Assembly: GCF_035573695.1 (NCBI RefSeq) | Contig: NZ_CP121694.1 | Span: forward strand, 1,216,501 to 1,280,500 | Direction of reading: 5' to 3' | DNA: 64,000 bases | Origin: Metallumcola ferriviriculae | GTDB lineage: Bacteria; Bacillota; JADQBR01 | Position numbers and translations under genes: made by a program | Notes under the pieces: generated by a model | What the model was told of the DNA's origin: nothing | The model's database searches: none | Seen by the model: the letters and a program-made list of their open reading frames with translations, nothing else | In this document: positions 16,121 through 40,832 of the stretch, in pieces | Numbering within the stretch: the stretch's first letter is position 1 | Layout of the letters: the number at the start of each line of letters is the position of its first letter

Positions 16121-16136
16121 TGGCATCATTTTTGCT
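16121..16136 (+). promoter_or_regulatory. Sigma-54 (-24/-12) promoter of the 130-aa gene
   Basis: TGGCATCATTTTTGCT has the GG and GC dinucleotides 12 bases apart and closely matches TGGCAC-N5-TTGCW. Transcription would start near 16146, directly before a GCAGGGGG ribosome site and the ATG at 16162. Confidence 0.75.
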
Positions 16137-16986: not shown

Positions 16987-17002
16987 TGGCATCTGTTTTG
17001 CA
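16987..17002 (+). promoter_or_regulatory. Sigma-54 (-24/-12) promoter of the ior operon
   Basis: TGGCATCTGTTTTGCA has GG (16988) and GC (17000) at the required 12-base spacing. A start near 17012 gives a very short leader with AGGAGGTGA before the TTG codon at 17030. Confidence 0.78.
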
Positions 17003-18136: not shown

Positions 18137-20064
18137 GTTTCTTAAGCCTGCAGGTTAATGAAGTAGGTAAACAAGTGCTAATGACAGGTAATGAAGCGGT
18201 TGCTCGTGCCGCCATTGAGGCCGGAGTAAGTTACGCTTCGTCATACCCAGGGTCTCCATCCTCTGAGATTTTGGGAAACTTGGGTAAGCTGGCTAAGCAG
18301 CATAACCTATATGCAGAGTGGTCCACCAACGAAAAAGTGGCTCTGGAAGGAGCCGCCGCCGCCTCATTTGCCGGTGTACGGGCCATCTGTATTGTCAAAC
18401 CGGACGGGTTAAATGTTGCCTTCGATACCTTAAAAAGCTTGACGTCGTCAGGCACTAAAGGCGGACTGGTGCTGGTGGTTAGCGACGACCCATCTGCGCA
18501 CTCAAGCACCAACGAGGAGGATTCACGTTACCTGGAAAAAGTGGCGCACATGCCCATTTTGGAACCCAGCACTCCCCAGGAAGCCAAAGACATGACGGTC
18601 GCTGCATTTGATTTATCGGAAAAGGTCAAGCTGCCAGTCTGTATTCGCTCGGTAACCAGGATATGTCACGCCAGTGGCAACGTAACCATTGGGCCGGTTA
18701 ATAAATCCATTAAGCAGCCTGTAATGGGTCCCGAGGACCGGTTCGTTACCAACATTTTATTCCATGCTGTCCAGGAGAAGAAGTTAGCCATGCTGGCACA
18801 GCTGGCGGAACAATGGCCCTTTAACCGTTATCAGGGCCCGGAGAATGCAAGAACCCTGATAATCACGGCGGGACCGGGCTTCGTCTATGCCCAAGAGGCT
18901 CTATCGGTGTTGGGTGTTGAAGAACAGGTGGGCATTCTCAAATTGGGTATTTCCTGGCCCCTTCCCGAAAATTTTATTGTCAATCATCTTGAGCATGCTG
19001 ATCAGGTAATTTTTTTAGAAGAAATAGAGCCTTTTAATGAAGAAAATATCATGCGTTTGGCGGCGCACCGGCTGGAGGAAGTTTATCCCATTAAGTTTTA
19101 CGGGCAAAAGTCGGGGCATGTTTCCGGTCAATTGGGACCGGGTTTAGGCGAAATAAATCCAGACACGGTAATCAGGGCATTAGCGGGCATTCTCAATCTT
19201 AGCTATACGGCCCAACCTAAGGGCTACGGTCAAGAGGCAGCCAGTCTGGTGCAAAATGTACCAGAACGAGAATTGGCTTTCTGCGCCGGCTGTCCTCATA
19301 GAGCTTCTTTCTGGGCAGTCAAATCGGCATTGGCCATAAATGGCAGAAATGGTGTCGTTATGGGCGACATCGGCTGTTATACCATGGGGCTGCTCAGAAC
19401 CGGATATAAGCTGCTTCAAGCGGTATTGGCCATGGGCTCCGGTGTAGGCCTTGCTCACGGTTTGGGTAAGTTGGACCGGTTTGGTTTTGAACAACCCGTT
19501 GTCGCCATGGTCGGCGATTCTACTTTTTATCATGCCGCCATACCCGCTCTGATTAACGCCAAATACAACAAATCCAATTTCCTGCTGGTAGTGTTGGATA
19601 ATGAGACCACGGCAATGACCGGGCATCAACCGCATCCGGGTTTGGGGCTAAATGCTATGGGGGATGAAACTGAACATATGCCCATTGAGAAGGTGGTAAA
19701 TGGTCTCGGGCTGCCGGTAGAAGTATACGACCCTTATGATGTGGATGGAACGACAAAGATGGTTTTTGATATGCTGCAGGAACAAGGGACCAAAGTATTG
19801 GTGCTGCGCCGTACCTGCGCATTGGTAACAGCGAAAAAAGAAACCAAGCCTAAAGTCTATGTGGACCAGAAGCTTTGTATCGGTGATGAATGCGGTTGTA
19901 ATCGCTTCTGCAGTCGAACCTTTGCCTGCCCGGCGAGTATATGGGACAAGAAGGCACAGAAGGCAATTATTGATGAAGCAGTATGCAACCGCTGCGGAGT
20001 CTGCGTCAGCCTTTGTCCACAAAACGCGATAAAACTGGAGGGGGTTGAAGCCGGTGAGTACTAG
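18133..20064 (+). CDS. iorA: Indolepyruvate:ferredoxin oxidoreductase alpha subunit
   Basis: 643 aa. N-terminal pyruvate-oxidoreductase fold (LMTGNEAVARAAIEAGVSYASSYPGSPSSEI), C-terminal TPP-binding half (VMGDIGCYTMG, MVGDSTFYHA) and a terminal two-cluster ferredoxin region (CIGDECGCNRFC; CNRCGVCVSLCPQNA). With IorB it converts aryl- or branched 2-oxo acids to acyl-CoA and CO2 and reduces ferredoxin. The enzyme class acts after deamination of amino acids, which fits the island's transporter and dehydrogenases. Confidence 0.93.
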   Translation: MSFLSLQVNEVGKQVLMTGNEAVARAAIEAGVSYASSYPGSPSSEILGNLGKLAKQHNLYAEWSTNEKVALEGAAAASFAGVRAICIVKPDGLNVAFDTLKSLTSSGTKGGLVLVVSDDPSAHSSTNEEDSRYLEKVAHMPILEPSTPQEAKDMTVAAFDLSEKVKLPVCIRSVTRICHASGNVTIGPVNKSIKQPVMGPEDRFVTNILFHAVQEKKLAMLAQLAEQWPFNRYQGPENARTLIITAGPGFVYAQEALSVLGVEEQVGILKLGISWPLPENFIVNHLEHADQVIFLEEIEPFNEENIMRLAAHRLEEVYPIKFYGQKSGHVSGQLGPGLGEINPDTVIRALAGILNLSYTAQPKGYGQEAASLVQNVPERELAFCAGCPHRASFWAVKSALAINGRNGVVMGDIGCYTMGLLRTGYKLLQAVLAMGSGVGLAHGLGKLDRFGFEQPVVAMVGDSTFYHAAIPALINAKYNKSNFLLVVLDNETTAMTGHQPHPGLGLNAMGDETEHMPIEKVVNGLGLPVEVYDPYDVDGTTKMVFDMLQEQGTKVLVLRRTCALVTAKKETKPKVYVDQKLCIGDECGCNRFCSRTFACPASIWDKKAQKAIIDEAVCNRCGVCVSLCPQNAIKLEGVEAGEY

Positions 20065-20668
20065 AGAATGCAACATTATTGTCACGGGTGTCGGCGGACA
20101 GGGTAATGTATTGGCCTCGCAAATAATTGCCACTGCGGCTGTGGGCAGCGGCTGTCAGGTGGCAGTAGGAGAGACGTACGGCGCGTCGCAAAGGGGGGGC
20201 TCGGTAATGAGCCACATACGGGTTTCATCCGATACAAATAAAGGGCCGCTTATTCCTAAGGGACAGGCGGATGTGGTGCTCAGCTTCGAACCTGTTGAGG
20301 CACTACGCGTGCTGCAAACTTATGGTCAAGATAGCACTACGGTTATAACCAACCTTCGCCCCAACTATCCGTTGAGCGTGCTGGTTGAGGAACAGGTATA
20401 TCCAGAGGTTGAGGATGTATTGACAGCCATTGACAGTATGTCAAGTCAATTGGTCACGGTAGAAGCTACCCAATTAGCTTTAGATGCCGGTTCGGCGGTG
20501 GCGGCCAATATGGTGATGACCGGTGCTTTTGCCGGCTGCGGTATTTTGGATATACCAGAGAGTACTTACCTAGAGGTTATTCGCGGTCTCTTTTCGGGTG
20601 AGGCACTAGTCCTTAATGAAAGGGCCTTCACTTTAGGAATCGGGGTTGCGGCGGTGAACAGTAAATAA
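20054..20668 (+). CDS. iorB: Indolepyruvate:ferredoxin oxidoreductase beta subunit
   Basis: About 204 aa. GTG 20054 is chosen because GGAGGGG lies nine bases before it; the in-frame TTG at 20045 is too close to that site. It shows the IorB/gamma-POR fold signatures IIVTGVGGQGNVLASQI, GETYGASQRGGSVMSHIR and ADVVLSFEPVEALR. It overlaps iorA by 11 bases, so translation is coupled. Confidence 0.93.
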   Translation: MSTRECNIIVTGVGGQGNVLASQIIATAAVGSGCQVAVGETYGASQRGGSVMSHIRVSSDTNKGPLIPKGQADVVLSFEPVEALRVLQTYGQDSTTVITNLRPNYPLSVLVEEQVYPEVEDVLTAIDSMSSQLVTVEATQLALDAGSAVAANMVMTGAFAGCGILDIPESTYLEVIRGLFSGEALVLNERAFTLGIGVAAVNSK

Positions 20669-22239: not shown

Positions 22240-22272
22240 TGCTTAGCACTTTAGTTGACAGGGGGAAGAACT

Positions 22273-24309
22273 ATGAAAGAAGTATTTACTATCTGTCCTT
22301 ACTGCGGCTGCGGCTGCGGTATGCACCTATTAGTGGATAAGGATGAGGTGGTGGGTGTAATACCCAGCAGCACCCACGCCGTCAACCAAGGCCAACTATG
22401 CGTAAAAGGCTGGCATGCACACGAGTTTGTCAATAGTCCCGATAGATTGCGCTCGCCGCTGATCAAAACTTCCCAGGGCTTTAAAGAAGTGCCTTGGGAA
22501 GCTGCCCTTAATAAAATTGCCTCAGAACTAAAAAGGATAACAGCACATGATGGGCCTGATGCAATAGGTTTTTTTAGCTCCGCAAAGTGCAGCAATGAAG
22601 AGAATTACCTGCTGATGAAGTTTGCCCGAGCAGCGGTAGGAACCAATAACATTGACCACTGCGCACGGTTGTGACACTCCGCTACCGTCGCCGGTCTGGC
22701 GGCTTCCTTTGGCAGTGGAGCCATGACTAATTCAATCGAAGAGATTGGGCAGGCAGATGTGATGCTAGTGACGGGGTCTAATACCACCGGACAGCATCCT
22801 CAGGTTGGTTCGCGCTTGATAGAAGCCGTAAATAATGGTGCCAAGCTGATTGTAGTAGATCCCAGGCGCATCCCGCTGGTGGAAACAGCTGCAGTCTATC
22901 TACAGCCCAAAGCAGGGACCAACGTGGCCTGGCTAAACGGCTTGGCCCATGTAATTATTAATGAAAACCTCTACAACCGTAAATTTGTCAGAGAATGTAC
23001 GGAAGGATTTGAGGAGTTATGCAAGATAGTAAAGCATTATACACCGCGCTATGTTGAGGAGATAACAGGCATACCTGCGTCAGAATTAATAGAGGCGGCA
23101 CGTCTTTACGCCGGTGCACACAGGGCTATGTTCTTTTATTGCATGGGAATTACCCAATTCACCTCGGGTGTGGATAACGTCAGGGCCTGCGCAAACCTGG
23201 CCATGCTGACGGGCAACATTGGCCGGCCGGGTACCGGGGTAAACCCGCTGCGAGGTCAAAATAATGTCCAAGGCGCCTGTGATATGGGGGCTTTGCCAAA
23301 TGTTCTTACAGGCTATCAAAAAGTCGAAGATCAAGAAGTAAGAAGAAAGTTCGAAAAAGCATGGCGTAAACCAATTCCGCCAAAACCGGGACTGACCATA
23401 ACGGAAATGGTAAACAGCGCTGCGGTTGGTGAGTTAAAATGCCTTTATATCATGGGCGAAAATCCCTTGGTCAGTGAGCCAAACCTGAACCATGTGTGCG
23501 GTGCATTCGATAATTTGGACTTCCTTGTTGTCCAAGACATCTTTATGACGGAAACTGCGGCAAAAGCAGATGTGGTTCTTCCGACCGCCTGCTTTGCTGA
23601 AAAAGACGGTACTTTCACCAATACCGATAGAAGAGTCCAAAGAATAAGACAGGCGGTGCATCCTAAGGGAAAAGCTGTAGAGGACTGGCGCATTATCTCG
23701 GCCTTGGCATGTAAGATGGGCTACATGATGGGCTACGAAAATCCTGAAGAGATTATGGAAGAAATATCCCTCTTGACCCCCTCCTACGGAGGCATAAATT
23801 ACTACCGTCTCCAGGAGAATGATTACCTGCAGTGGCCCTGCCCTGACAGCAGTCACCCCGGTACTCCTTTCTTGCATAAGAATAGTTTTGCCAGGGGCAG
23901 GGGACAATTTCACGCCGTTCATTACAAGCAACCCTGGGAAGTGCCTGACAATGACTATCCATTAATCCTGATCACCGGACGAACCGCTTTTCAATTTCAT
24001 ACCGCCAGCATGACCGGACGAACCACCATTACCAACAGGGAAACTCCAGAAGCGTTTGTGGAAATAAATCCTATCGATGCCCATCGTTATCGAATCAGAC
24101 ATAACCAGATGGTAAAGGTCAGCTCCCGCAGGGGTGATATCAGGTGTAAGGCAGCAATTAGCGACATCGTTACTAGTGGTTCAGTTTTTGTCCCATTTCA
24201 CTTTGCCACAGCTGCTGCCAATATGCTGACTGGGAGTTTTGTGGACCCGGTTGCAAAAATTCCCGAATATAAGAGTTGTGCTGTAAAAATTGAGAGGGTG
24301 GAGAGATGA
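22273..24309 (+). CDS. fdhF: Selenocysteine-containing molybdenum/tungsten formate dehydrogenase catalytic subunit
   Basis: A continuous gene read through an in-frame TGA at 22672-22674 (selenocysteine 134). Flanking residues DHCARL-U-HSATVAG match the formate dehydrogenase active site, and a SECIS-like hairpin follows. The start is the ATG after GGGGGAAGAACT. An N-terminal [4Fe-4S] motif (CPYCGCGCG plus a distal Cys in QLCVKGW) precedes molybdopterin-binding domains (GSNTTGQHP; GENPLVSEPN; ADVVLPTACFAEKDGTFTNTDRR) and a C-terminal dinucleotide-binding domain. About 678 aa, like FdhF. It oxidises formate or reduces CO2; the next two subunits should link it to NAD(P). Confidence 0.93.
22675..22720 (+). 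promoter_or_regulatory. Bacterial SECIS-like hairpin for UGA recoding
   Basis: Directly after the TGA, CTCCGC (22677-22682) pairs with GTGGAG (22715-22720). An inner CGCC/GGCG stem presents the apical loop GGTCT (22693-22697), about 18 bases from the codon. Loop sequence and distance resemble the E. coli fdhF element recognised by SelB. Confidence 0.75.
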
Positions 24310-28269: not shown

Positions 28270-28307
28270 TGTTTCAGGAGGAAACATCATCAGTTACAAA
28301 ATGAAAG
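28270..28307. promoter_or_regulatory. Tandem enhancer dyads before the TRAP operon
   Basis: TGTTTC-AGGAG-GAAACA (28270-28286) is a perfect inverted repeat. GTTAC-AAAAT-GAAAG (28293-28307) is a weaker copy with its centre 22 bases on, two helical turns. The first centre is about 131 bases before the predicted start site. The same motif precedes the beta-oxidation promoter. Confidence 0.7.
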
Positions 28308-28382
28308 AAGAGTACTAATGAAATTTTCGGATTAATTTAATTTTCTGAGAGTTTTAAACGATTTTTTAATTTCAAAAAATAA

Positions 28383-28398
28383 CGGCACGCTTCTTGCT
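28383..28398 (+). promoter_or_regulatory. Sigma-54 (-24/-12) promoter of the TAXI-TRAP operon
   Basis: CGGCACGCTTCTTGCT matches TGGCACG-N4-TTGCW at all positions but the first, with GG-GC spacing of 12. The predicted start is near 28409. The roughly 110-base leader contains an early AGGAGG before a five-codon frame, then the real gene. Confidence 0.85.
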
Positions 28399-28521
28399 TC
28401 TATACTAGGGCGAAAGATATTTTAAGGAGGTGTGTGATCATCAAGGCTTAGACTAATTGGACTTTTATTATTATTTGAATTTTAAAAAATCAGCAAAAAA
28501 TGGAACAGGAGTGAGAGTTAA

Positions 28522-29556
28522 ATGAAAAAAAAGAGAAGTCGTATCATATTATTAATATGTGTATTTGCTTTGGTTAGTTTGGTTGCCGGTTGCGGCGGTG
28601 GAGAAGGTTCTGCGCAGCTGCAAAACTTAAAATTCTTATCAGGTCCTACAGGGACAACCTGGTATTCTCAAGCCTCGGCTTTTGCGGGGATAGCTTCTAA
28701 AGACATGGGTACTACTGTAGATGTTTTAACTGGTTCAGCTATTAGTAATGTTATTCAAGTAGAAAACGGTAAAGCTGACATGGGTCTGACATTTGCATCT
28801 TACTTACCGGCTATGGCCAATGGTGAAGTAGTGGCCGAGATCGGCGATAAAGCATATTTTAGTGAACCAGTGAAAAATGTAAACACGCTGTTTAACTCAA
28901 CCACAGCAGCGTACGTTTTTCTAGTAAGTGCGGATTCCCCGTATCAGACGGTATCTGATTTAAAGGACCAGCCCATTAAATATGTGACATATCCCGTAGG
29001 TTTTACTGCCCGTTTTGTACCGGAGCAAATTCTCGCGGCACACGGTATCACCTATGACAACATCGAAGCAGCAGGCGGCAAGGTTGATATCGTTGGTAAG
29101 TATAAGGAAGCATGCGATCTTCTGGCAAAGGGCCAAACTGATGTTATCGCCTATACTATGGCGGTAAATGCTCAGTCAGCTGCCTTGGCTGAATTAGAGT
29201 CACAAAACGAATTTAGAATATTGAAGCTTGACCAGGATGCAGTGGAAAAGGTTACGAAAGAGCTGCCGCTGGTAGTAGCTACAGTGCCTAAGGGACTGCA
29301 TACCAGTATTAAAGAAGATGTAGATGTAATGGCCGATATCACTACTTGGGTAGTACGGGCCGATATGCCGGACGAAACTGTAACAAAAATTTTAGATGCT
29401 GTCATCGCTAACATGGATACCATGGCTCAAGTGGGCAACAGCGAATTTAAGGGCTTCACTGCCAAGGAATTAAGCAGACTGTACGGAAAAGGTTCGCAGA
29501 TTCCTTTCCATCCAGCAGCTGTCGAGTACTTCAAGGAAAAAGGAGCAATCCAATAA
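28522..29556 (+). CDS. TAXI-family TRAP transporter solute-binding lipoprotein
   Basis: 344 aa with a lipoprotein signal (basic N terminus, hydrophobic run, LVAGC). The mature sequence begins in the TAXI pattern (FLSGPTGTTWYSQASAFAGI) and continues with GKADMGLTF and DVIAYTMAVNAQS. It binds a carboxylate or amino acid outside the cell for the fused permease encoded next. It is the first gene after a sigma-54 promoter. The substrate is unknown; a fatty or organic acid would suit the beta-oxidation operon. Confidence 0.9.
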   Translation: MKKKRSRIILLICVFALVSLVAGCGGGEGSAQLQNLKFLSGPTGTTWYSQASAFAGIASKDMGTTVDVLTGSAISNVIQVENGKADMGLTFASYLPAMANGEVVAEIGDKAYFSEPVKNVNTLFNSTTAAYVFLVSADSPYQTVSDLKDQPIKYVTYPVGFTARFVPEQILAAHGITYDNIEAAGGKVDIVGKYKEACDLLAKGQTDVIAYTMAVNAQSAALAELESQNEFRILKLDQDAVEKVTKELPLVVATVPKGLHTSIKEDVDVMADITTWVVRADMPDETVTKILDAVIANMDTMAQVGNSEFKGFTAKELSRLYGKGSQIPFHPAAVEYFKEKGAIQ

Positions 29557-29597
29557 AGCATCGGAAAAAAATTTAAGTTAGAATACTTCTAAAGTGT

Positions 29598-29661
29598 GGA
29601 CCTCTTGCCTGTAAAATCCTTATAGTTTTCCAAATTTGGAATATAGCGCAGAGGTCCTTTT
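29598..29661 (+). terminator. Structured element between binding protein and permease (possible attenuator)
   Basis: GGACCTCT and AGAGGTCC form a stem followed by TTTTAT, enclosing an inner palindrome TTCCAAATTTGGAA (29628-29641). It could lower permease expression relative to the binding protein, a usual need in TRAP systems. Confidence 0.5.
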
Positions 29662-29717
29662 ATGTAAAAATATGATTTTTTCTAGCATCTTCAGCTAGTT
29701 GGTGGAGGGTTGAATTA

Positions 29718-31619
29718 ATGAACAGGAATCTACAAGGTTCAGTGGGAAAGATAATTGATATCTTAGCAGTATTATTAACACTATTTGCCCTGCAAATAAT
29801 AGTTGTCGGCCCAACCCTAGGATACAATGTATCTTTGGCAATATTCTTGGCTATTGCATTGCCCATGACGTTCTTTATTTATGCCGGCGGTCATAGCGAA
29901 TTCATGAAAAAGATCAATGTGGTTGACATGATTTTTGCTGTGCTTTCCGTGGTATCAATTGGATATTTGGTGGTCAGGGCCAACTATATTTTAACCAGGG
30001 TTGAGTACGTATCTCCTCTTTCAATAACTGATTATATTATGGGAATTATAGCCATAATAGCTGTTTTGGAGGCTACACGCCGAGCTATTGGTTTACCCAT
30101 GTCAGTTGTCGTATTAGTCTTATTTGGCTATGCAAGCTTCGGACAGTATTTACCGGCGCCCTTTGGCCATGCCGGGTTCACTTTGGATTGGATCATCGAT
30201 ACCATGTATCTGACTTCCCGAGGTATCTTTGGCAGTCCCTTATGGGTAGTAATCACTCTGGCATTTCCCTTTATATTTTACGGCGTAATTTTGGAACAGA
30301 TGGGGGTATTGAAATCCTTTTTGGATTTCGCCAACAGACTGTTTGGTAAATCTCAAGGTGCGCCTGCTAAGACGGCAATTGTAGCCGGAACATTTATGGG
30401 GATGGCCAGTGGGATGCCCATGTCCACAACCTACCTAATCGGATTTCCTACAATCCCGGAAATGAAAAAGGTGGGCTACCCTGGCAGGACGGCGGGGGCG
30501 ATAGCTGCGGTAGTAGGTACTGCAGCACAATTAATGCCGCCCATGTTGGGTGTAGCAGCTTTTATTGTGGCTCAATATATGGGAGTGCCATACATTAAAG
30601 TTGCCCAATACACTTTGCTGCCCGCCTTGCTTTTCTATTTCGTATTTTTTATTACAGTGCATTTGGAATCGAAAAGGTTAGACATCAAAGCTGTCGAGAC
30701 GCCTAAGGTCCCTTATAAAGATATCTTGTTAGGCGGCTTCCATATCTTCATCATAACCATTGCTATATTGCTCTATTTCCTGCTCAAGTTTTACCCGGTT
30801 GGGTTGGCCGCGTTCTACGCTTGTACGGTGGCGCTGTTATTCGGGGTGGCACGGAAAAAAGACAGGCTGACCTTAAAGGGTTTATATGCGATATTTGCTA
30901 AGACAGGAAAAACTTCGGTTTATATTGCCATTGCCTGTGCATCAGCTGGTATCATCACTGGCTTTTTGGTGGAGACAGGGTTAAACCTAAAATTTGCTAA
31001 CATGGTAATCACTTTCGGTCAAAACAGTCTCTTTCTAGCCTTAGTTTTATCAGCGATAGCCATCTTGGTGATGAGTATGGGGATGCCTTCTATCCCTGCG
31101 TATATCACCAGTATCGCAATTTTTGGTCCGGCTTTGATTAGACTTGGAGTAATTCCAGAGGTTGCTCATATTTTCTCCTTTTATTATGCAACTTTATATT
31201 CCATTACTCCTCCCGTAGCTTTTGCTTCTTATGCCGGGGCCCAAATCGCCGGTGAAGACCCGATGAAGACCGGCCTTGTAGCAGTAAGGCTGGGGATTAT
31301 GACTTATATCATTCCCTTTGTATTTGCCTATTCCCCGGCCTACTTGATGATTCCGGAATATTGGAATGCGTATGAGGTGTTCAGACTACTGGTCTTTGTA
31401 TTGCCCGGCTTAGTAGTATTTGCTGCCGGTATCAGCGGCTATCTCACCAGGACCCTTACCTCCTTGGAACGGTCCATGGCAGTTGCGGGCGGTTTAATGC
31501 TATTGCTTCCATTCAGCATCCTTGATTATATAGGATTTGTCTTAATGGTAGTGGTATTTTTTAAGCAAGGGGTATTCACCATGCTTTTCAACCGCAAAAA
31601 GCAGGAAAGTGCAGCATAG
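29718..31619 (+). CDS. TRAP transporter fused permease (DctQ-DctM, TAXI type)
   Basis: 633-aa polytopic membrane protein. The N-terminal four-helix DctQ-like part (about 1-160) is fused to the large DctM-like part with MGMASGMPMSTTYLIGFPTI and VMSMGMPSIPAYITSI repeats. It uses an ion gradient to import the ligand delivered by the TAXI protein. The ATG follows GGTGGAGGG. A strong terminator follows the gene. Confidence 0.92.
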   Translation: MNRNLQGSVGKIIDILAVLLTLFALQIIVVGPTLGYNVSLAIFLAIALPMTFFIYAGGHSEFMKKINVVDMIFAVLSVVSIGYLVVRANYILTRVEYVSPLSITDYIMGIIAIIAVLEATRRAIGLPMSVVVLVLFGYASFGQYLPAPFGHAGFTLDWIIDTMYLTSRGIFGSPLWVVITLAFPFIFYGVILEQMGVLKSFLDFANRLFGKSQGAPAKTAIVAGTFMGMASGMPMSTTYLIGFPTIPEMKKVGYPGRTAGAIAAVVGTAAQLMPPMLGVAAFIVAQYMGVPYIKVAQYTLLPALLFYFVFFITVHLESKRLDIKAVETPKVPYKDILLGGFHIFIITIAILLYFLLKFYPVGLAAFYACTVALLFGVARKKDRLTLKGLYAIFAKTGKTSVYIAIACASAGIITGFLVETGLNLKFANMVITFGQNSLFLALVLSAIAILVMSMGMPSIPAYITSIAIFGPALIRLGVIPEVAHIFSFYYATLYSITPPVAFASYAGAQIAGEDPMKTGLVAVRLGIMTYIIPFVFAYSPAYLMIPEYWNAYEVFRLLVFVLPGLVVFAAGISGYLTRTLTSLERSMAVAGGLMLLLPFSILDYIGFVLMVVVFFKQGVFTMLFNRKKQESAA

Positions 31620-31628
31620 ACATGTTAC

Positions 31629-31660
31629 AAAGGCCATCGTTTAAAGCGGTGGCCTTTTTT
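31629..31660 (+). terminator. Rho-independent terminator after the TRAP permease
   Basis: AAAGGCCA(TCG) and (CGG)TGGCCTTT form a stem followed by six T residues. Confidence 0.85.
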
Positions 31661-31680
31661 CGTGTTTACTCATTTACAAC

Positions 31681-31716
31681 GTTCTATTAGGCAACCTATT
31701 TGTTTCATTATGAAAC
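31681..31716. promoter_or_regulatory. Tandem enhancer dyads before the beta-oxidation operon
   Basis: GTTTCAT-T-ATGAAAC (31702-31716) is a perfect dyad within the TGTTTC-N5-GAAAC pattern. A weaker copy at 31681-31695 matches it at 11 of 15 positions with its centre 21 bases upstream. The main centre is about 139 bases before the predicted start, nearly the same geometry as at the TRAP promoter. Confidence 0.7.
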
Positions 31717-31822
31717 CTCCCAAGGGCCTTTGGCAGTAATGCAAGAATGAGATAGTCACGTGCAGGGCGAATTTGTTAGTGTTTTCTAACTTTTTAGCAT
31801 ATTCAATATATATAAAGGACAT

Positions 31823-31838
31823 TGGCATGAGTCTTGCT
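31823..31838 (+). promoter_or_regulatory. Sigma-54 (-24/-12) promoter of the beta-oxidation operon
   Basis: TGGCATGAGTCTTGCT matches the consensus with the 12-base GG-GC spacing. Transcription should begin near 31848 and run through at least ten genes. The leader up to the ATG at 31964 shows no supported gene. Confidence 0.85.
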
Positions 31839-31963: not shown

Positions 31964-33802
31964 ATGGCAGAATTTGCCTACGATTTAAGGGACTTAAAAT
32001 TTATTCTTAATGAATGGCTTGATATGGAAGAGATTTTCGGCCTGGAAAGATTCAAGGATACTTATGAAATGGACGATGTGGATTTCATCTTAAATGAAGT
32101 TTATAAAATTGCCAAAGAGGTTGTTTCTCCGATTAATAAGCAGGGGGACGAGATCGGTATCAAATTTGAGGACGGGAAGGTTACGCTTCCGCCCGGTTAT
32201 GTGGATGTATTTAAATTTTTACAGGAAAACGGTTGGGGTTCAGCCAATGAATCTTTAGGTTCAGAAATGCTGATGCCGCTAACTTTATATCGAGCTTACA
32301 ACGAAATGTTGATGGCTGCCTGTCCGGCGCTGACCTCATATATCAAACTAACTACCGGTGCATCTAACCTTATTCACCGATTTGGTACCGACAAAGACAG
32401 AGAAATATTTATTGAGAATATGCTTAATGGCAAATGGAGCGGTACGATGTGTCTCACCGAACCTAACGCCGGCTCTGATGTGGGTGACTCCACTACCAGG
32501 GCTTATCCCACAGATGACCCCAGGATATATAAGATTAAAGGGACCAAGATGTTTATCACCGGCGGCGAGGTGGATCTGTCAGACAATATCATCCACATGG
32601 TTTTGGCTCGTCCAGAAGGCGGTGCCCCCGGTTCTAAGGGATTGGGACTATACATCGTACCGAAGATTTGGGTGAATGAAGACGGCAGCTTAGGAGAGCC
32701 CAATGATGTTACTTGCATCGGTATCGAGCACAAGATGGGTCTTAAGGCCTCTGCTACCGCTATGTTAAGTTTTGGTGAGAACGAAGGCTGCCGCGGAATT
32801 TTGGTGGGCAATCCCGCGGATGAAAAAGGCTTCTCGAAGGGTTTGGCCATGATGTTTCATATGATGAATGAATCCCGGATTGGCACAGGCCATAATGCTC
32901 TTGCCCAAATGGCCGAAGCATATTGCCTGTCTGCTCAGTATGCCACTGAACGTATTCAGGGGCGGCTGTTTACTGACCCCAAAGCCGGGCGCGTAGAGTT
33001 AATTAAGCACGAAGATATAAAAAGAATGCTGTTGGAAATCAAAGCACAAACAGAGGCCATTAGGGCGATGATATTTAAAGGTTTCTATTATTTGGATGTA
33101 GCCGAACACAGCGGTGATAAAGAGAAGGCCACAAGATATCAGGGTTTAGCGGAGATATTAACACCGCTGATTAAGGCCTACGCCAGTGAAACTGCTTGGC
33201 AGATGATTGGCCAAGCGATTCAAGTCTACGGTGGTGTTGGCTATACAGAGGAATATCCGGTATCTCAGTATGCAAGGGACGTTAAAATTCTTTCCATCTG
33301 GGAAGGGACATCCTTTATTCATGCTATGGACTTAGTAGGCCGTAAGATGCGGATGAAAGATGGAGTACCCTTTGCTAACTGGATGAGTGACCGGAGAGAA
33401 TTTATTGACCGGAATAAAGACGCTGAAGGATTTGGTAAGGAAATGCAGCAGTTGGAGAACGCGTATCAGTGCGTGGCTGAAATCAAGGACCTCTATGCAT
33501 CTTATTATGCTAACAAGGATGAAAAGGGAGAACTAATCCCGCTTTATGCTCCACGAGTGCTTACCTGCTGTGCCCAGCTTTTCGCCGGAGAAGCCATCAT
33601 GGACCAAGCGATGATAGCCAAGAAGAAGATTGCTGAGTTAGGCACTGACCACCATGACTATGCTTATTACACGGGAAAACTGGCCACGGCAAAATTCTTT
33701 ATTAATAATATCCTGCCTAACGTAAAAATGCAGGCGGAGCTGATTAAAAACGCTGATGTGTCGGCTATTGAATGTCCTGAAGAATCTTTGATAATCAGTT
33801 AA
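31964..33802 (+). CDS. Acyl-CoA dehydrogenase
   Basis: 612 aa, the long form with a C-terminal extension beyond the 380-aa core. It has the flavin/substrate segment MCLTEPNAGSDVGDSTTRA, ITGGEVDLSDNI, QVYGGVGYTEEYPVSQYARD and IWEGTSFIHAMDL, where the Glu is the likely catalytic base. It introduces the first double bond in acyl-CoA and passes electrons to ETF or another carrier; no ETF genes are in the window. The ATG follows TAGGAGGGGTATGAA. It leads the operon. Confidence 0.92.
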   Translation: MAEFAYDLRDLKFILNEWLDMEEIFGLERFKDTYEMDDVDFILNEVYKIAKEVVSPINKQGDEIGIKFEDGKVTLPPGYVDVFKFLQENGWGSANESLGSEMLMPLTLYRAYNEMLMAACPALTSYIKLTTGASNLIHRFGTDKDREIFIENMLNGKWSGTMCLTEPNAGSDVGDSTTRAYPTDDPRIYKIKGTKMFITGGEVDLSDNIIHMVLARPEGGAPGSKGLGLYIVPKIWVNEDGSLGEPNDVTCIGIEHKMGLKASATAMLSFGENEGCRGILVGNPADEKGFSKGLAMMFHMMNESRIGTGHNALAQMAEAYCLSAQYATERIQGRLFTDPKAGRVELIKHEDIKRMLLEIKAQTEAIRAMIFKGFYYLDVAEHSGDKEKATRYQGLAEILTPLIKAYASETAWQMIGQAIQVYGGVGYTEEYPVSQYARDVKILSIWEGTSFIHAMDLVGRKMRMKDGVPFANWMSDRREFIDRNKDAEGFGKEMQQLENAYQCVAEIKDLYASYYANKDEKGELIPLYAPRVLTCCAQLFAGEAIMDQAMIAKKKIAELGTDHHDYAYYTGKLATAKFFINNILPNVKMQAELIKNADVSAIECPEESLIIS

Positions 33803-33831
33803 GGATCCCATTGGTGCAAGGAGGACGACAG

Positions 33832-35181
33832 ATGAATCGTTATCAAAAGGAGTACAAAAATAAACTGGTCACTGCCGACGAGGCAGTAAAAGCGGTCCAA
33901 CCAGGAGATTGGGTTGCATACAGTCATTTTGCCATGACCCCAAAGGTATTGGATGAGGCCTTATCAAGAAGAAAAGCAGAACTTAGTGATGTGAAGGTGA
34001 GAGGGGTATGCGCTGTTCACCCACTGCAGGTGGCCCTGACAGATCCAGACCAAAAGCACTTTATTTATAACAGCGGCTTTTTCAGCGGCGTGGAAAGAAA
34101 ACTGCAGGATGGGGGAATGGCCTTTCATATTCCTGGTCTCTATCAGGAGTCGCCGATAACTATGAGAAGCGGCCAGGCAAGTAAACCCCAAGTAACAATG
34201 CTCGTAACAACACCCATGGATGAAAATGGATTTTTCAATTTAAGTGTCTCCAATTCATATGAGCATGCAGCGTTTGAGCGGGCTGATACGGTGATTGTGG
34301 AAGTGAATAAGAATGTTCCCCGGTGTTTGGGCGGAGACCATGAGAATATCCACATCAGCGAGATAGATCATATTGTAGAGGGTAATAACGAGCCGTTGGT
34401 TGAAATTCCTCAACACCCCGCCAGTGAAATTGATAAGAAAATTGCCTCCCTTATTGTGGAGGAAATTGAGGATGGGGCGTGCCTGCAGCTGGGCATTGGC
34501 GGCATGCCCAACACAGTTGGTCAAATGATCGGCGAATCAGACTTGAAGGATCTAGGTGTCCATAGTGAGATGCTTTGCGGCGCATTTGTTGATTTATATG
34601 AAAAAGGGAAAATCACCGGAGCAAAGAAAAGCATTGACCGTTATAAGATGACATTTACCTTTGCCTTGGGTGATAAAAGGTTATACGATTTTATTCATAA
34701 TAATCCGGCCTGCGCCATCTACCCTGTGAATTATACGAATTCTACCGAAACCATCTCTAAAAACGATAAACAAATATCTATTAACAATGCCATAGAAATA
34801 GACTTATATGGGCAGGTTTGTTCCGAGACGGTGGGTGCCCGGCAGATTTCCGGCACCGGCGGACAGTTTGATTTTACTTACGGAGCAGTACGTTCTAAAG
34901 GTGGTAAAGCGTTTATCTGCTTAAGTTCAACTAAGAAACTGGGTGACAACACGGTTTCCAGAATTGTGCCCACATTAACACCTGGAAATGTTGTCACCGT
35001 ACCGAGAACGGTGGTGCAGTATGTGGTCACTGAATACGGCAAAGTAAACCTGAAAGGCAAATCCACCTGGCAGCGGACCGAAATGCTGATTAACATTGCT
35101 CACCCTGATTATCGAGAAGATTTGGTGAAGGAAGCGGAAAGATTAAAGATTTGGACCAGGACCAATAAGTTGGTTCTCTAA
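33832..35181 (+). CDS. Acetyl-CoA hydrolase/4-hydroxybutyrate CoA-transferase family protein
   Basis: 449 aa from the ATG after AAGGAGGACGACAG; an in-frame TTG at 33811 lies before that site. It contains the family block INNAIEIDLYGQVCSETVG (Glu is the CoA-bearing residue in homologues), then GTGGQFDFTYGA and GLGIGGMPN-like LQLGIGGMPNTVG. It moves CoA from acetyl- or another acyl-CoA to a carboxylate, so it is the likely activation step for the imported acid. Confidence 0.9.
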   Translation: MNRYQKEYKNKLVTADEAVKAVQPGDWVAYSHFAMTPKVLDEALSRRKAELSDVKVRGVCAVHPLQVALTDPDQKHFIYNSGFFSGVERKLQDGGMAFHIPGLYQESPITMRSGQASKPQVTMLVTTPMDENGFFNLSVSNSYEHAAFERADTVIVEVNKNVPRCLGGDHENIHISEIDHIVEGNNEPLVEIPQHPASEIDKKIASLIVEEIEDGACLQLGIGGMPNTVGQMIGESDLKDLGVHSEMLCGAFVDLYEKGKITGAKKSIDRYKMTFTFALGDKRLYDFIHNNPACAIYPVNYTNSTETISKNDKQISINNAIEIDLYGQVCSETVGARQISGTGGQFDFTYGAVRSKGGKAFICLSSTKKLGDNTVSRIVPTLTPGNVVTVPRTVVQYVVTEYGKVNLKGKSTWQRTEMLINIAHPDYREDLVKEAERLKIWTRTNKLVL

Positions 35182-35209: not shown

Positions 35210-36079
35210 TTGGCAGCTATCGATGTTAAAAACGTTTGTGTCGTCGGCGCGGGCAACATGGGACACCAAATTTCCCTATCCGCAGCATTGGCAGGTTTTA
35301 AGGTGACCTGCACGGACATAAGTAAAGAGACGTTACAGAAGGCAGAGGAATTTTGTGATAGTTACTTACCCGGGCGTGTAGCCAAAGGGAAACTTTCCGA
35401 GGAAGAAGCGAAAGCGGCGCGGGAAAGGCTGACATTTACTGAAAGTTTGGCAGAGGCCGCCAGGGACGCTGATTTTGTAATTGAGGCCGCTGTTGAAAAA
35501 TTGGAGCTGAAGCGAAAAATCTTCGCTGACTTGGATCGGATTTGTCCAAAACACGCTATCCTGGCTACCAACAGCTCATATATTGTCAGCTCAAAAATCT
35601 GTGATGCAACCGAAAGACCGGAAAAGGTGTGTAATGTGCATTTTTTCAACCCTGCATTGGTGATGAAATTGGTAGAGGTTGTTAAAGGTGCGCATGTGTC
35701 CGATGAAACAGTAGAGACCGCCGTGGCTGTTTGTGAGAAGATGAATAAAGTCCCCGTTGTTTTACAAAAAGAGATTTGGGGATTTTTGGTCAATCGCATA
35801 GTATCAGCTATCAAAAATGAAGCTTTGTATCTTCATGATATGGGCGTTGCCACACCGGAAGACATTGATACGGCAGTGGTGCATGCTCTGGGGCATCCTA
35901 TGGGACCATTTAGATTGTTAGATTTAACCGGAATAGATTTGAGCTACTATGTGGGCACCGAGCGTTATCAGGAAACAGGCGACCCTAAGTATAAACCGTC
36001 GCCAATCATTGTAGAAAAGTACGTTAAGAAAGAATGGGGACGCAAAACAGGTAAAGGATTCTATAATTACTGCAAATAA
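35210..36079 (+). CDS. 3-Hydroxyacyl-CoA dehydrogenase
   Basis: 289 aa from a TTG preceded by AAAGGAGTGTATT. Rossmann loop VVGAGNMGHQIS; conserved VIEAAVEKLELK, TNSSYIVSS and HFFNPALVMKLVEVV with the catalytic His; and C-terminal GRKTGKGFYNY. It oxidises 3-hydroxyacyl-CoA to 3-ketoacyl-CoA with NAD, the third step of beta-oxidation. Its length is that of clostridial Hbd. Confidence 0.93.
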   Translation: MAAIDVKNVCVVGAGNMGHQISLSAALAGFKVTCTDISKETLQKAEEFCDSYLPGRVAKGKLSEEEAKAARERLTFTESLAEAARDADFVIEAAVEKLELKRKIFADLDRICPKHAILATNSSYIVSSKICDATERPEKVCNVHFFNPALVMKLVEVVKGAHVSDETVETAVAVCEKMNKVPVVLQKEIWGFLVNRIVSAIKNEALYLHDMGVATPEDIDTAVVHALGHPMGPFRLLDLTGIDLSYYVGTERYQETGDPKYKPSPIIVEKYVKKEWGRKTGKGFYNYCK

Positions 36080-36109: not shown

Positions 36110-37294
36110 ATGAGGCCAGTATACTTGGTTGAAGGTGTTCGCACAGGCATAGCAAAATCAGGAAAAAGATCTTGGTTCACCAATGTCAGAGCGGATGATT
36201 TGGCCGCAATGGTACTTAACGAAGTGCTAGAGCGTGCCGAAGTCACTGGAAAGAAGCGGGAGCAGGTTGACGATGTCATCTTAGGCGGAACTTATTTACA
36301 AAAAGAAATGGGCTCGAATATTGGACGTATGGCTGCGGTTATGGCAGGGCTGCCATACCGGGTGGGTGGTTGTACTGTTGACCGCCTTTGCGGCTCAGGC
36401 CTACAATCCATCGCCTTTGGTATTTCATCTATTGCCATGGGTTGGAATGACATGGTTATTGCCGGCGGGGTGCAGCATATGACACATATTCCTATGTTTA
36501 CCGGCGTAGACCCGAACCCCCGGTTGGATGAATTTTGTGACCCGAAAATGGTGCGGATGGGCTATACCGCAGAAATGGTGGCTAGGAAGTTTAACATCAG
36601 CAGAGAAAAGCAGGACCAAATGGCGGTAGAAAGTCACGCTAAAGCTCATAGGGCAACAGAGGAAGGCTTGTTTAAGGGAGAGATTTTACCCATCGAGGCA
36701 GAAGTACCCTTAAAAGAAGGGGGTACTAAAAAAATGGTGGTGGACCGTGACCAAGGGATACGGCCGGGTACCACTATGGAAAGTTTGGCACAATTAGAGC
36801 CGGTATTTATGGATGATGATAAAGCAACAGTTACTGCCGGTAACTCCAGCCAAACAAATGATGCTGCGGCAGCAGTGCTGATTGTCAGTGAAGATAAGCT
36901 CAAAGAATTAGGACTGAAGCCCAAAATGAAACTGGTGGGGTACAAGGTGGTTGGTGTAGACCCAGCCCTGATGGGAATTGGCCCTGCGGCAGCAATACCT
37001 AAGGTTTTACAGCAAGCAGGCATGACCGTTGACCAGATTGACCTGTGGGAGATTAACGAGGCATTCGCTTCTCAAGCGTTATACTGCGCCGAGGAATTGG
37101 GCATCAGAAATCATCCGCTGCTTAATCCCCGGGGCAGCGGCATTGCACTGGGTCACCCATTGGGTTGTACAGGCGCTCGAATAGCTACTACCATCATGCA
37201 TGCTATGCCTGATTATAATGCCAAATATGCAGTGGAAAGCATGTGTATCGGACACGGACAGGGTGCTGCAGCTATTTGGGAATGGGTAGGTTAA
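36110..37294 (+). CDS. Acetyl-CoA acetyltransferase (thiolase)
   Basis: 394 aa with the nucleophilic Cys in VDRLCGSGLQSIA, the NEAFA segment (WEINEAFASQAL), GHPLGCTGAR and the C-terminal CIGHGQGAA loop. It cleaves 3-ketoacyl-CoA with CoA to release acetyl-CoA. The ribosome site is AAAGGAGGATACGAA. Confidence 0.93.
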   Translation: MRPVYLVEGVRTGIAKSGKRSWFTNVRADDLAAMVLNEVLERAEVTGKKREQVDDVILGGTYLQKEMGSNIGRMAAVMAGLPYRVGGCTVDRLCGSGLQSIAFGISSIAMGWNDMVIAGGVQHMTHIPMFTGVDPNPRLDEFCDPKMVRMGYTAEMVARKFNISREKQDQMAVESHAKAHRATEEGLFKGEILPIEAEVPLKEGGTKKMVVDRDQGIRPGTTMESLAQLEPVFMDDDKATVTAGNSSQTNDAAAAVLIVSEDKLKELGLKPKMKLVGYKVVGVDPALMGIGPAAAIPKVLQQAGMTVDQIDLWEINEAFASQALYCAEELGIRNHPLLNPRGSGIALGHPLGCTGARIATTIMHAMPDYNAKYAVESMCIGHGQGAAAIWEWVG

Positions 37295-37323
37295 AAAAAT
37301 ATTCGCTAGTGGAGGAGTTTTGT

Positions 37324-38103
37324 ATGGATTTTAAGAATTTATTAATGGAAAAGGACGGACATATTGCAGTTGTTACTTTAAACCGCCCGGAAGTACGCAA
37401 TGCCCTTGATCCGCAGACCTGGGTAGAAATTCGCGGCGCAATACGGCAATGCCGTTTGGACCAAGATGTACGGGTAGTGATAATTACCGGAGCAGGCGGC
37501 AAGGCCTTTGCTTCCGGAGCGGACATTAAGTCTTTACGAGAACGGGAATCCCTGGCGGTCTTAACCAGTGAAGCCCAGGAATCTTTAAATGATGTTGAAA
37601 ACCTAGAGAAACCGGTGATAGCTGCCATAGACGGATTCGCCTTGGGCGGCGGTTGTGAGTTGGCCATGGCTTGTGATATCAGAATTGCCACCAGCCGTTC
37701 CAAGCTGGGACAGCCCGAAGTCAACCTAGGCATTATTCCCGGTGCCGGCGGCACCCAGCGCTTACAAAGAATTGTGGGTATAGGTAAGGCCAAGGAACTG
37801 ATTTTTACCGGTGATATTTTAAGTGCAGCGGAAAGCAAACAAATTGGCTTGGTTAATCAGGTTGTAGCGGAACCAGAAGAATTACTGCCCACCGCAAAAG
37901 AGATGGCCAAGAAGATACTAGGCAAGGGCCCCATGGCGGTAAGCTTAGCAAAGATGGCCATCAATGTGGGGGCTAATACCGATATGAACTCCGGCTTACT
38001 ATTCGAAAAATTTGCCCAGGTTATTGCGTTCTCCACTGAGGACCGCATCGAAGGGACCACGGCGTTTCTAGAAAAACGCAAACCTGATTTTAAAGGCAAG
38101 TAG
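37324..38103 (+). CDS. Enoyl-CoA hydratase
   Basis: 259 aa from the ATG after GTGGAGGAGTTTTGT; an upstream in-frame ATG at 37243 lies inside the thiolase gene. Crotonase fold with the oxyanion segments ASGADIKSL and IDGFALGGGCELAMACD and the catalytic Glu region QPEVNLGIIPGAGGTQRL. It hydrates trans-2-enoyl-CoA. The frame continues beyond its TAG into an acyl-CoA dehydrogenase remnant. Confidence 0.93.
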   Translation: MDFKNLLMEKDGHIAVVTLNRPEVRNALDPQTWVEIRGAIRQCRLDQDVRVVIITGAGGKAFASGADIKSLRERESLAVLTSEAQESLNDVENLEKPVIAAIDGFALGGGCELAMACDIRIATSRSKLGQPEVNLGIIPGAGGTQRLQRIVGIGKAKELIFTGDILSAAESKQIGLVNQVVAEPEELLPTAKEMAKKILGKGPMAVSLAKMAINVGANTDMNSGLLFEKFAQVIAFSTEDRIEGTTAFLEKRKPDFKGK

Positions 38104-38228: not shown

Positions 38229-39410
38229 ATGGTGCAAGATGTAGCAATTATCGGTGCAGGGCAAACCCGTTACGGTGATTTTCCGGATAACGGCGTCAAG
38301 GAACTGTTTGCCGAAGCTTATTTGGAAATGATCCAAAGTGTGGATAAAGGTTTGGACCCGCAGCAGATTGGCAGTGCATACATCGGTAATTTAAGTGCCG
38401 GCAGCGGCTACCAACTGGGACAGCTGGCCCCTTTATTGATGGGGCATGTGGGCTTACCCCACGCTCATGCAGTGCGGGTGGAGAATGCTTGCGGCTCCGG
38501 CGGTTATGCTTTATATAGTGCGGCATGTGCTGTGGCTTCAGGTAAATTTGATATGGTCATCGCTGCCGGGGTGGAGAAAATGCGCGATGTATCTTCCACT
38601 AAAGGCAAGTACTGGCTTGGCGTCTCGGGGGATACGGAATATGAACGATTGGCGGGTTCTACATTTGCCGGAATTTATGCCTTGATGGCCAAGCGGTATA
38701 TGCATGAGTACGGGCTTAAAAGAGAACATCTATCTATGGTTGCCGTCAAGAATCATCGTAATGCCGTGGCTAATCCCAAAGCACAGTTTCGGAAGGAAAT
38801 TACGCTGGATAAAGCAATGAGTGGGGTACCGGTTGCCGACCCATTTAACGTCTGGGACTGTAGCCCCACTTCGGACGGGGCGGCAGTAGTCTTATTATGC
38901 AACGCCAAAATAGCCAAACAATTTACCGATAAACCGGTTTATCTAAAAGGATTTGGCGCGGCCAGCGATTATCTGGCAATCCATGATCGGCATACATTTA
39001 CTAGTCTCGTCGCAGCTCAGAAGGCAGCTGCCGAGGCATATAAACAAGCAAATGTCGGGCCAAAGGATATTAACTTTGCTGAGGTACATGATTGTTTTAC
39101 CATAGCGGAGATTTTAGCTTATGGTGACCTAGGCTTTTGTGAGGTGGGGCAGGCTCAGCGACTGTTGGAAGAGGGTACTACCCAACCTGATGGCAGGCTG
39201 CCTGTAAATGCCAGTGGTGGTCTTAAGGCCAAAGGACATCCCCTTGGTGCCACGGGCTGCGGTCAGGCCACGGAAATATTTAAACAATTGCGAGGCGAGG
39301 CCAAGGAGCCCAGCCGTCAAATTCAAAACGGCAGAATTGCCTTATCTCATAATGTGGGCGGTTCCGGCGGCACAGCAGCAGTTTTCATTTATCAGAGGGG
39401 GGACGAATGA
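38229..39410 (+). CDS. SCP2/archaeal-type thiolase
   Basis: 393 aa, begun after GAAAGAAGGTGTAA. Nucleophilic Cys in VENACGSGGYALYSAA, HDCFT (EVHDCFTIAEILAYGDLG) and GHPLGATGCGQ. This subgroup is distinct from the thiolase at 36110 and resembles the thiolases that form a complex with HMG-CoA synthase and a DUF35 protein in archaea. Both partner types follow with 4-base overlap and 10-base spacing. It may make or cleave a special acyl-CoA. Confidence 0.87.
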   Translation: MVQDVAIIGAGQTRYGDFPDNGVKELFAEAYLEMIQSVDKGLDPQQIGSAYIGNLSAGSGYQLGQLAPLLMGHVGLPHAHAVRVENACGSGGYALYSAACAVASGKFDMVIAAGVEKMRDVSSTKGKYWLGVSGDTEYERLAGSTFAGIYALMAKRYMHEYGLKREHLSMVAVKNHRNAVANPKAQFRKEITLDKAMSGVPVADPFNVWDCSPTSDGAAVVLLCNAKIAKQFTDKPVYLKGFGAASDYLAIHDRHTFTSLVAAQKAAAEAYKQANVGPKDINFAEVHDCFTIAEILAYGDLGFCEVGQAQRLLEEGTTQPDGRLPVNASGGLKAKGHPLGATGCGQATEIFKQLRGEAKEPSRQIQNGRIALSHNVGGSGGTAAVFIYQRGDE

Positions 39411-40405
39411 TGACTAAAAGTATCATAGCTTATGGAGCTTATCTGCCGTTCCTCCGTATCAAAAGGGATGAATACATCAGTTCTTTGGGAAGCTGCACAG
39501 CTGCAATCAAAGAGAAGACGGTCATGGATACCGATGAAGATGTAGTAACCATGGCTGTGGCAGCGGGGAGGAAGGCCATTAGAGGAATAGATGCGGCTGA
39601 AATCGGGGCTTTAGCCCTGGCCTCTTCTAATTTCCCATATCAGGAAAAGTTGGCAGCAGGAACGGTAATGGAAGCACTGGGTCTTGATAACAGTATTTTA
39701 ACCGGACAACACAGCGGTTCAACCATGGCAGGAAGCGAAGCATTTATGGCTGCTTTAGGATTATTGGATCAAAGTGACAAGAAATATGCTTTGGTAATTA
39801 TCTCTGATGCTCCAGCCACTGATGCAGCTCAGGACATGGACCATGGCCTGGGTGCGGCGGCTTGTGCCCTTTTGCTTGCTCAGGATGAGCCAGGCCTAGA
39901 GTTTGAAGGGGTTTCTGCCCATGTGACTGAATCTTTAGGACTTCGCTATCGGCTTCCCGGCGAAACCAATCTCCGGGATATTGGGGTTAAGGCCTATGGC
40001 AGTCAGGCATATAATAACACCATGAGTAGTGCAATAACGGGGCTCTTGAATAAGTTAGAACGAAAAGCCGCTGATTATAAGTATGCTGTCCTCCATCAAA
40101 ATGATATTAAAACAGCTGCAGGTCTGGCCAAAAAGATGGGCTTTAAGGATGAGCAGCTACAGAAAGGTGTTACCTATGACCGGGTCGGGGACAGCGGTGC
40201 CTGTTCGCCATTTCTAGGTGTATGTACACTCATGGACAGCATTGGTGCAGGTGAAAAAGTGATAATTTGCTCGTACGGTTCGGGCGGAGGCAGTCAAGCA
40301 CTTAGTTTTACGTGTACGAAGCAGTTAGCAGGTAAATCTTTTGATGATGATGAAAAGAGATATATTGATTATATTCAATACCTTAAAATCAAAAAGAAAC
40401 TCTGA
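39407..40405 (+). CDS. HMG-CoA synthase-like (KAS III fold) protein, apparently lacking the catalytic Cys
   Basis: 332 aa. The pattern is that of archaeal HMG-CoA synthase (SIIAYGAYLPFLRI, GAAACALLLAQ, VLHQND corresponding to HxPN, GDSGACSPFLG, SYGSGGGSQALSF). Where the archaeal enzymes have the nucleophilic Cys, the segment reads TGQHSGSTMAGSEAF, so Ser or His replaces it by visual alignment. It may be a structural or channel partner of the thiolase rather than a synthase. It overlaps the thiolase by four bases. Confidence 0.8.
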   Translation: MMTKSIIAYGAYLPFLRIKRDEYISSLGSCTAAIKEKTVMDTDEDVVTMAVAAGRKAIRGIDAAEIGALALASSNFPYQEKLAAGTVMEALGLDNSILTGQHSGSTMAGSEAFMAALGLLDQSDKKYALVIISDAPATDAAQDMDHGLGAAACALLLAQDEPGLEFEGVSAHVTESLGLRYRLPGETNLRDIGVKAYGSQAYNNTMSSAITGLLNKLERKAADYKYAVLHQNDIKTAAGLAKKMGFKDEQLQKGVTYDRVGDSGACSPFLGVCTLMDSIGAGEKVIICSYGSGGGSQALSFTCTKQLAGKSFDDDEKRYIDYIQYLKIKKKL

Positions 40406-40415
40406 GGTGAATTAA

Positions 40416-40832
40416 ATGGGTGCTCATATATCCATTCCCATGTACCAACGGTCTGTTTCCCAACGTTACCGGCTGGTTGGTCATAAGTGCAAGCACTGCG
40501 GCAGGGTTAATTTCCCTCCCAAAGCTGTTTGCAAATACTGCCTTAAAGGCAGTGAATTTGAAGAAGTGGTATTAAGTGGCCGAGGGACCGTCTACTCATA
40601 TACCGTCATTGCCGGCGGGGGTGCTCCGCCGGAGTTTGCCGAGGAAGCACGCTGTAAAGGAAAATATCCGGTAGCGATTGTGGAACTGGAAGAAGGACCC
40701 CGGATGATAGCGCAGCTTGTTAATCTCCCGGAAGCCGGCATTGAAATCGGGATGAAGGTTGAGGCAGTCTTTAGAAGAATTTATCAGGAAGAGGGTGTCA
40801 TACGGTACGGGTTTAAGTTTAAACCGTTGTAA
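40416..40832 (+). CDS. DUF35 Zn-ribbon/OB-fold acyl-CoA-binding protein
   Basis: 138 aa with an N-terminal zinc ribbon (CKHCG...CKYC) and a C-terminal OB fold (GRGTVYSYTVI, YPVAIVELEEGPRMIAQL). In the archaeal acetoacetyl-CoA thiolase/HMG-CoA synthase complex a DUF35 protein bridges the two enzymes and shares the CoA site. The same gene trio here suggests the same assembly. Confidence 0.87.
   Translation: MGAHISIPMYQRSVSQRYRLVGHKCKHCGRVNFPPKAVCKYCLKGSEFEEVVLSGRGTVYSYTVIAGGGAPPEFAEEARCKGKYPVAIVELEEGPRMIAQLVNLPEAGIEIGMKVEAVFRRIYQEEGVIRYGFKFKPL

Follow-up and report, generated by a model that had tools for sequence, protein, structure and literature searches.

A PrpR_N-type sigma-54 activator and paired enhancer dyads at the predicted promoters of TAXI-TRAP uptake and beta-oxidation operons in Metallumcola ferriviriculae

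The locus described here raises the question of whether uptake and degradation of an organic acid are placed under the common control of one dedicated sigma-54 activator. Sigma-54 promoters require an upstream activator, and in anaerobes PrpR_N is frequent among their sensor domains. The stretch of DNA analysed (hereafter the window; 64,000 nucleotides, positions 1216501-1280500 of the 3.72 Mb single-contig genome of Metallumcola ferriviriculae) encodes an activator of this type, followed by genes of a TAXI-TRAP importer (promoter 1) and of beta-oxidation (promoter 2). The first-pass annotation had suggested joint activation of both promoters by the adjacent regulator, and our analysis supported it: pairs of dyads accompany sigma-54 boxes at both promoters and are co-conserved with an orthologous regulator in 16 other genomes. 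From this sequence evidence we consider it highly probable that the regulator jointly controls the two operons via paired enhancers, and the operons would very probably switch on together.

Promoters and dyads in the window

Both promoters carry -24/-12 boxes of the GG-N10-GC layout and close to consensus, as had been annotated previously (Table 1). Predicted transcription starts were taken 12 nt past the GC of the -12 box. Relative to these starts, the strong dyads are centred at the distance of about 130-140 bases given in the first-pass annotation, and the weaker second dyads, which had been placed 21-22 bases away, were found at exactly such spacing. The order of the strong dyad is reversed between promoters, with the upstream member at promoter 1 and the downstream member at promoter 2 being the strong one, and the core common to both pairs is GTT-N9-AAC.

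The rarity of these elements was assessed by pattern searches of the 3.72 Mb genome. The exact TTGGCAYN5TTGCW box occurs 14 times, and 175 sites were found with up to one mismatch, versus 27 for the reversed pattern. Exact GTTTCN5GAAAC was detected at nine positions, and only the two in the window are followed by a sigma-54 box at approximately 110-120 bp; the other seven are in coding sequence or have no sigma-54 box at usable distance, and no wider regulon was found. Since the single dyad with one mismatch is not enriched genome-wide (146 versus 179 in the reversed control), the set controlled by the dyads would be a small dedicated regulon and not a global one. The relaxed tandem pattern GTTT-N8-AAC-N6/7-GTT-N9-AA, built from the two window sites, was present in three places, namely both promoters and one location without a nearby sigma-54 site, against two in the reversed control, and is by itself near chance level; what is unexpected by chance is that the tandem pair coincides with a strong sigma-54 box at each of the two promoters. 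The dyad pair at each window promoter had a dinucleotide-shuffle p <= 0.001, and the dyad score was 15.25-15.5 at these promoters whereas some 29 further sigma-54-like sites in the genome reached 11.5 at most.

Table 1. Positions of the regulator, promoter elements and operon genes within the window.
Feature	Position	Strand	Details
Sigma-54 activator, 631 aa	26370..28265	+	PrpR_N (27-190), PAS, AAA+ with GAFTGA, Fis-like helix-turn-helix (GTSRTTLWRK)
Promoter 1, upstream (strong) dyad GTTTCAGGAGGAAAC	28271..28285	.	Centre ~-131; exact GTTTCN5GAAAC; kept in relatives
Promoter 1, downstream (weak) dyad GTTACAAAATGAAAG	28293..28307	.	Starts 22 bp after strong dyad; centre ~-109
Promoter 1, -24/-12 box CGGCACGCTTCTTGCT	28383..28398	+	One mismatch; predicted start ~28409; aligns with TGGCATGGTATTTGCT of relative G342
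TAXI solute-binding protein	28522..29556	+	TIGR02122, 138.8 bits (cut-off 84.35)
Fused TRAP permease (DctQM)	29718..31619	+	TIGR02123, 479.6 bits (cut-off 320.65)
Terminator-like hairpin and T run between operons	31629..31660	+	Fold -18.7 kcal/mol, z -5.4; present also in G342
Promoter 2, upstream (weak) dyad GTTCTATTAGGCAAC	31681..31695	.	21 bp upstream of strong dyad; centre ~-161
Promoter 2, downstream (strong) dyad GTTTCATTATGAAAC	31702..31716	.	Centre ~-140; exact GTTTCN5GAAAC; kept in relatives
Promoter 2, -24/-12 box TGGCATGAGTCTTGCT	31823..31838	+	Perfect; predicted start ~31849; one of the 14 exact TTGGCAYN5TTGCW sites
Acyl-CoA dehydrogenase, 612 aa, extra C-terminal domain	31964..33802	+	PF00441, PF12806
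CoA-transferase, butyryl-CoA:acetate type	33811..35181	+	TIGR03948, 569/674.8 bits, below equivalog cut-off
3-Hydroxyacyl-CoA dehydrogenase	35210..36079	+	PF02737, PF00725
Acetyl-CoA acyltransferase (thiolase)	36110..37294	+	TIGR01930, 424 bits (cut-off 240.55)
Enoyl-CoA hydratase	37243..38103	+	PF00378, 5e-69
Archaeal-type thiolase-like, HMG-CoA-synthase-like and OB-fold (ChsH2/DUF35-type) proteins in a row	38229..40832	+	

Conservation of the dyad pairs with the regulator

When 398 genomes were searched with the acyl-CoA dehydrogenase, copies were found in G342 (85-86% identical) and G251 (77%). In G342 the full order is present, with regulator (78%), TAXI protein (78%), TRAP permease (80%) and dehydrogenase, and with sigma-54 boxes at both positions; in an alignment of its intergenic regions with those of the window, both dyad pairs are retained, spaced by 22 bp at promoter 1 and by 21 bp at promoter 2. 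The weak dyad of promoter 2 reads GTTTTATTCGGCAAC in G342 and GTTTTAAAAAGCAAC in G251.

Altogether, 17 orthologous regulators were identified in 16 other Bacillota genomes (54-77% over the first 200 residues), usually in a cluster of regulator, transporter, dehydrogenase, CoA-transferase, dehydrogenase, thiolase, hydratase and second thiolase set. The dyad score had been fixed beforehand from the window and was then applied to these relatives, where all 25 promoters scored had paired dyads at a distance of 21 or 22 bp, with scores of 13.75-16.5 points and a shuffle p <= 0.001 in each case. The spacing was 21 bp in all 13 promoters 2 and either 22 or 21 bp in promoters 1, the former being found in G342, G398, G460, G404, G447, G402 and G452. 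As a guard against circularity, 704 dyad templates (64 half-sites x 11 spacers) were enumerated on the relatives alone, with the window excluded. GTT-N9-AAC was the only template occurring in 25/25 promoters and the only one in tandem in at least four, with 13 cases at exactly 21 bp. Because the pairs are conserved and the core was recovered without the window, the weak second dyads can be regarded as real sites. It should be added that the sequence flanking the dyads is much diverged between relatives. The pairs have the features of specific conserved upstream activator sites, as characteristic of a sigma-54 regulon.

Sigma-54 promoters of homologous dehydrogenase operons that lack an orthologous regulator scored 8.75-11.5 and had no pair, the exception being a promoter with 14.5 points (G251, locus L243) on a contig that bears a second PrpR_N regulator. 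More distant PrpR_N regulators, of 33-43% identity, are likewise followed by sigma-54 promoters, but their dyads vary (GTTTA types), and for this reason they were left out of the motif. Furthermore, in Proteiniclasticum aestuarii three successive TGTTTC-N5-GAAACA-like dyads (L059:11792-11850) separate a PrpR_N regulator of 37% identity from its sigma-54 box.

The regulator, its proposed action and competing explanations

The domain order of the regulator, PF06506 (3e-36, 125 bits), PF00158 (1.4e-71, 240 bits) and helix-turn-helix (HTH), is that of PrpR_N sigma-54 activators; GAFTGA was read in the translation, and the HTH was recognised by alignment, with no Pfam HTH_8 hit at the cut-off. The host genome encodes about 28 sigma-54 activators, a number that makes the presence of rpoN near certain, and this regulator is its sole PrpR_N protein. 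The segment GTSRTTLWRK is nearly constant across the 18 orthologs.

We propose that the regulator is a ligand-sensing activator dedicated to the two operons. Its dimers would bind the two dyads (core GTT-N9-AAC) at each promoter, where the dyad centres, about two helical turns apart, would lie on the same side of the helix, roughly 110-160 bp ahead of the start; the AAA+ ring would then reach the sigma-54 polymerase by looping and open the promoter. Promoter 1 would thereby supply the TAXI-TRAP importer, and promoter 2 the enzymes for activation and beta-oxidation of the imported acid. The PrpR_N domain may sense the acid or its product, so that uptake and breakdown would be induced together.

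Several observations weigh against this proposal. In the window, promoter 2 has a degenerate weak dyad (GTTCT/GCAAC); given the common ancestry of the relatives, the 25 promoters do not count as independent events; four relatives (G400, G403a, G428 and G430) have no promoter after the regulator, the next gene being divergent or rearranged; and with about 28 activators in the genome, cross-binding by another is possible. The last point leads to the first alternative, namely that the dyads are bound by a different sigma-54 activator, the PrpR_N protein acting on targets elsewhere. Sites of the form TGT-N10-12-ACA serve many clostridial activators (PMC6615313), and TGTTTC-N5-GAAACA would fit into this class; the dyad at 28270-28286 indeed has such arms, and the core shared by all promoters is GTT-N9-AAC, with the flanking T/A only partly conserved. 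Nevertheless, the pair tracks the PrpR_N regulator through 16 genomes and is absent where the homologous operon has other activators. Among the paralogs properly compared, those at plus-strand loci, none has an HTH close to that of the regulator (best alignment score 62 versus 210), and the genome has no other tandem target near a sigma-54 site, which also counts against another activator; we therefore consider this alternative improbable.

Another possibility is that the regulator is a genuine propionate PrpR that responds to 2-methylcitrate, the inducer known for the PrpR_N class, and has the two operons as side targets. The first-pass name "PrpR-like" holds for the domain layout and the half-site, and one MmgE/PrpD protein is encoded in the genome. 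However, the regulator fell below the cut-offs of both propionate-PrpR equivalog models (TIGR02329, 413.4/499.2 bits; NF011953, 376.8/703 bits), its N-domain is diverged from that of E. coli PrpR, and its neighbours are TRAP and beta-oxidation genes and not methylcitrate (prp) genes; the MmgE/PrpD protein is encoded some 280 kb distant, in the midst of carboxylate transporter genes and next to another activator, of the GAF type. In Salmonella the PrpR enhancer is CGTTTCATGAAACG, with GTTTC/GAAAC half-sites (PMC4987338); the half-sites are the same here, but the spacer is of 5 bp and not of 2. Given the bit score of 413 against a cut-off of 499, the lack of adjoining prp genes and the different half-site spacing, the protein is best described as PrpR-like, yet distinct from the propionate-PrpR equivalog, and its identity with the latter is very improbable.

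The likeness to enterobacterial PrpR/prpBCDE nonetheless goes beyond the order of PrpR_N, AAA+ and Fis-like HTH domains. The recognition segments are nearly the same (GTSRTTLWRK aligns with GISRTTFWRR of E. coli PrpR), both systems have the GTTTC/GAAAC half-site and a sigma-54 promoter adjoining the regulator gene, and several GTTTCA half-sites occur in the E. coli prpR-prpB region. By analogy, the regulator probably acts like PrpR at the DNA, with a similar reading head and the same half-site at another spacing. Differences are the two 15-bp dyads 21/22 bp apart, the additional PAS domain, the co-oriented and not divergent regulator gene, and the targets, TRAP uptake and beta-oxidation in place of the methylcitrate cycle.

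It is hardly credible that the dyads arose as inverted repeats by chance, or that a repressor or a global regulator binds them, with the sigma-54 boxes acting without them: the lack of enrichment of single one-mismatch dyads would agree with it, but sequence, pairing and 21/22 bp spacing are conserved in all relatives despite diverged surroundings, and the requirement of sigma-54 promoters for an upstream activator is established.

The two operons, their origin and significance

The terminator-like hairpin between the operons indicates that the two are transcribed separately, each from a promoter of its own. In the uptake operon, both the binding protein and the fused permease exceed the cut-offs of their families, as expected of a TAXI-TRAP system. 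A strong RNA hairpin at 29575-29690 (z -5.6) is located between the two genes, and is perhaps an attenuator or stabiliser that yields more binding protein than permease. In G398, G404, G402 and G466 (loci L280, L284, L287 and L292) a DctPQM TRAP system and a two-subunit CoA-transferase, families tested in G398, replace TAXI-TRAP behind the same enhancers, and in G452 and G466 a CoA-transferase stands directly behind promoter 1. As two unrelated binding-protein systems fill the same slot behind the same enhancers, these replacements support a role of promoter 1 in uptake of the acid degraded by the second operon. TAXI-TRAP systems have been called neglected, with few known substrates (PMC5812351); since a TAXI deletion in Psychrobacter altered growth on acetate, butyrate and fumarate (PMC5812351), a short acid is a plausible substrate by analogy.

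The second operon extends from the acyl-CoA dehydrogenase (31964) to at least the OB-fold protein (40832). Nearest solved relatives of the 612-aa dehydrogenase are acyl-CoA dehydrogenases of 590-614 aa, including FadE5. The HMG-CoA-synthase-like protein and its 9 relatives have no Cys at the position of the Cys in archaeal 6esq (FACKAG versus GSTMAG), and the proteins of 38229-40832 probably constitute a second thiolase complex of the PhlACB or BbsAB kind, not a system for HMG-CoA synthesis. Beta-oxidation requires an electron-transfer flavoprotein, and the clusters of G251 and G447 hold genes that, judged by eye, read as its subunits. From the transporter and enzyme families, the degraded compound would be a carboxylate.

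Elsewhere in the window, two more perfect sigma-54 boxes (16121-16136 and 16987-17002) were found near a second activator (13202-14935, PAS and CBS), preceding a small ORF of unknown function (open reading frame; 16162) and ferredoxin-type oxidoreductase genes (17030-20668). A molybdopterin oxidoreductase is apparently split into ORFs 22255-22674 and 22723-24309 in different frames, for which a frameshift, a sequencing error or an in-frame special codon are candidate causes.

Among known systems, enhancers of NorR/NtrC type likewise place multiple activator sites ahead of a single sigma-54 promoter, and differ in sensor domains and site sequences; here exactly two dyads stand two helical turns apart. 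Clostridial sigma-54 regulons (Nie et al. 2019, PMC6615313) share the dedicated activator adjoining its operon, palindromic upstream sites, TTGGCATN5TTGCT promoters and control of CoA metabolism, and PrpR_N is listed there among regulatory domains of sigma-54 activators. They differ in that most have TGT-N10-12-ACA or other motifs; a TRAP importer together with this beta-oxidation set is named for none of the 39 groups in Table 1 of that study, and its butyrate groups serve synthesis. No earlier description of the present regulon was found in the openly accessible literature. The regulatory system is ordinary in kind, well-founded and new in particulars.

The regulator of the window groups inside Desulfoscipio/Desulfallas orthologs (100/99 support), although by the search the host genome belongs to a different class from theirs; the dehydrogenase tree is in loose agreement with the regulator tree, with no strong support. 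The whole module, including the enhancers, was likely transferred horizontally. More tentatively, and with rather less than even confidence, it may represent a self-contained mobile catabolic cassette of a dedicated PrpR_N activator with a unique enhancer pair, exchangeable TAXI/DctP importers and beta-oxidation with an unusual second thiolase complex; if so, the substrate would be other than plain butyrate and the PrpR_N ligand other than 2-methylcitrate.

Across at least 17 genomes, sequence conservation links the regulator and the sites with the importer and the degradation genes. The exact site model allows regulon calling in other genomes, and the regulator-promoter pair could reveal the ligand of a new PrpR_N class together with the substrate of a TAXI-TRAP importer.

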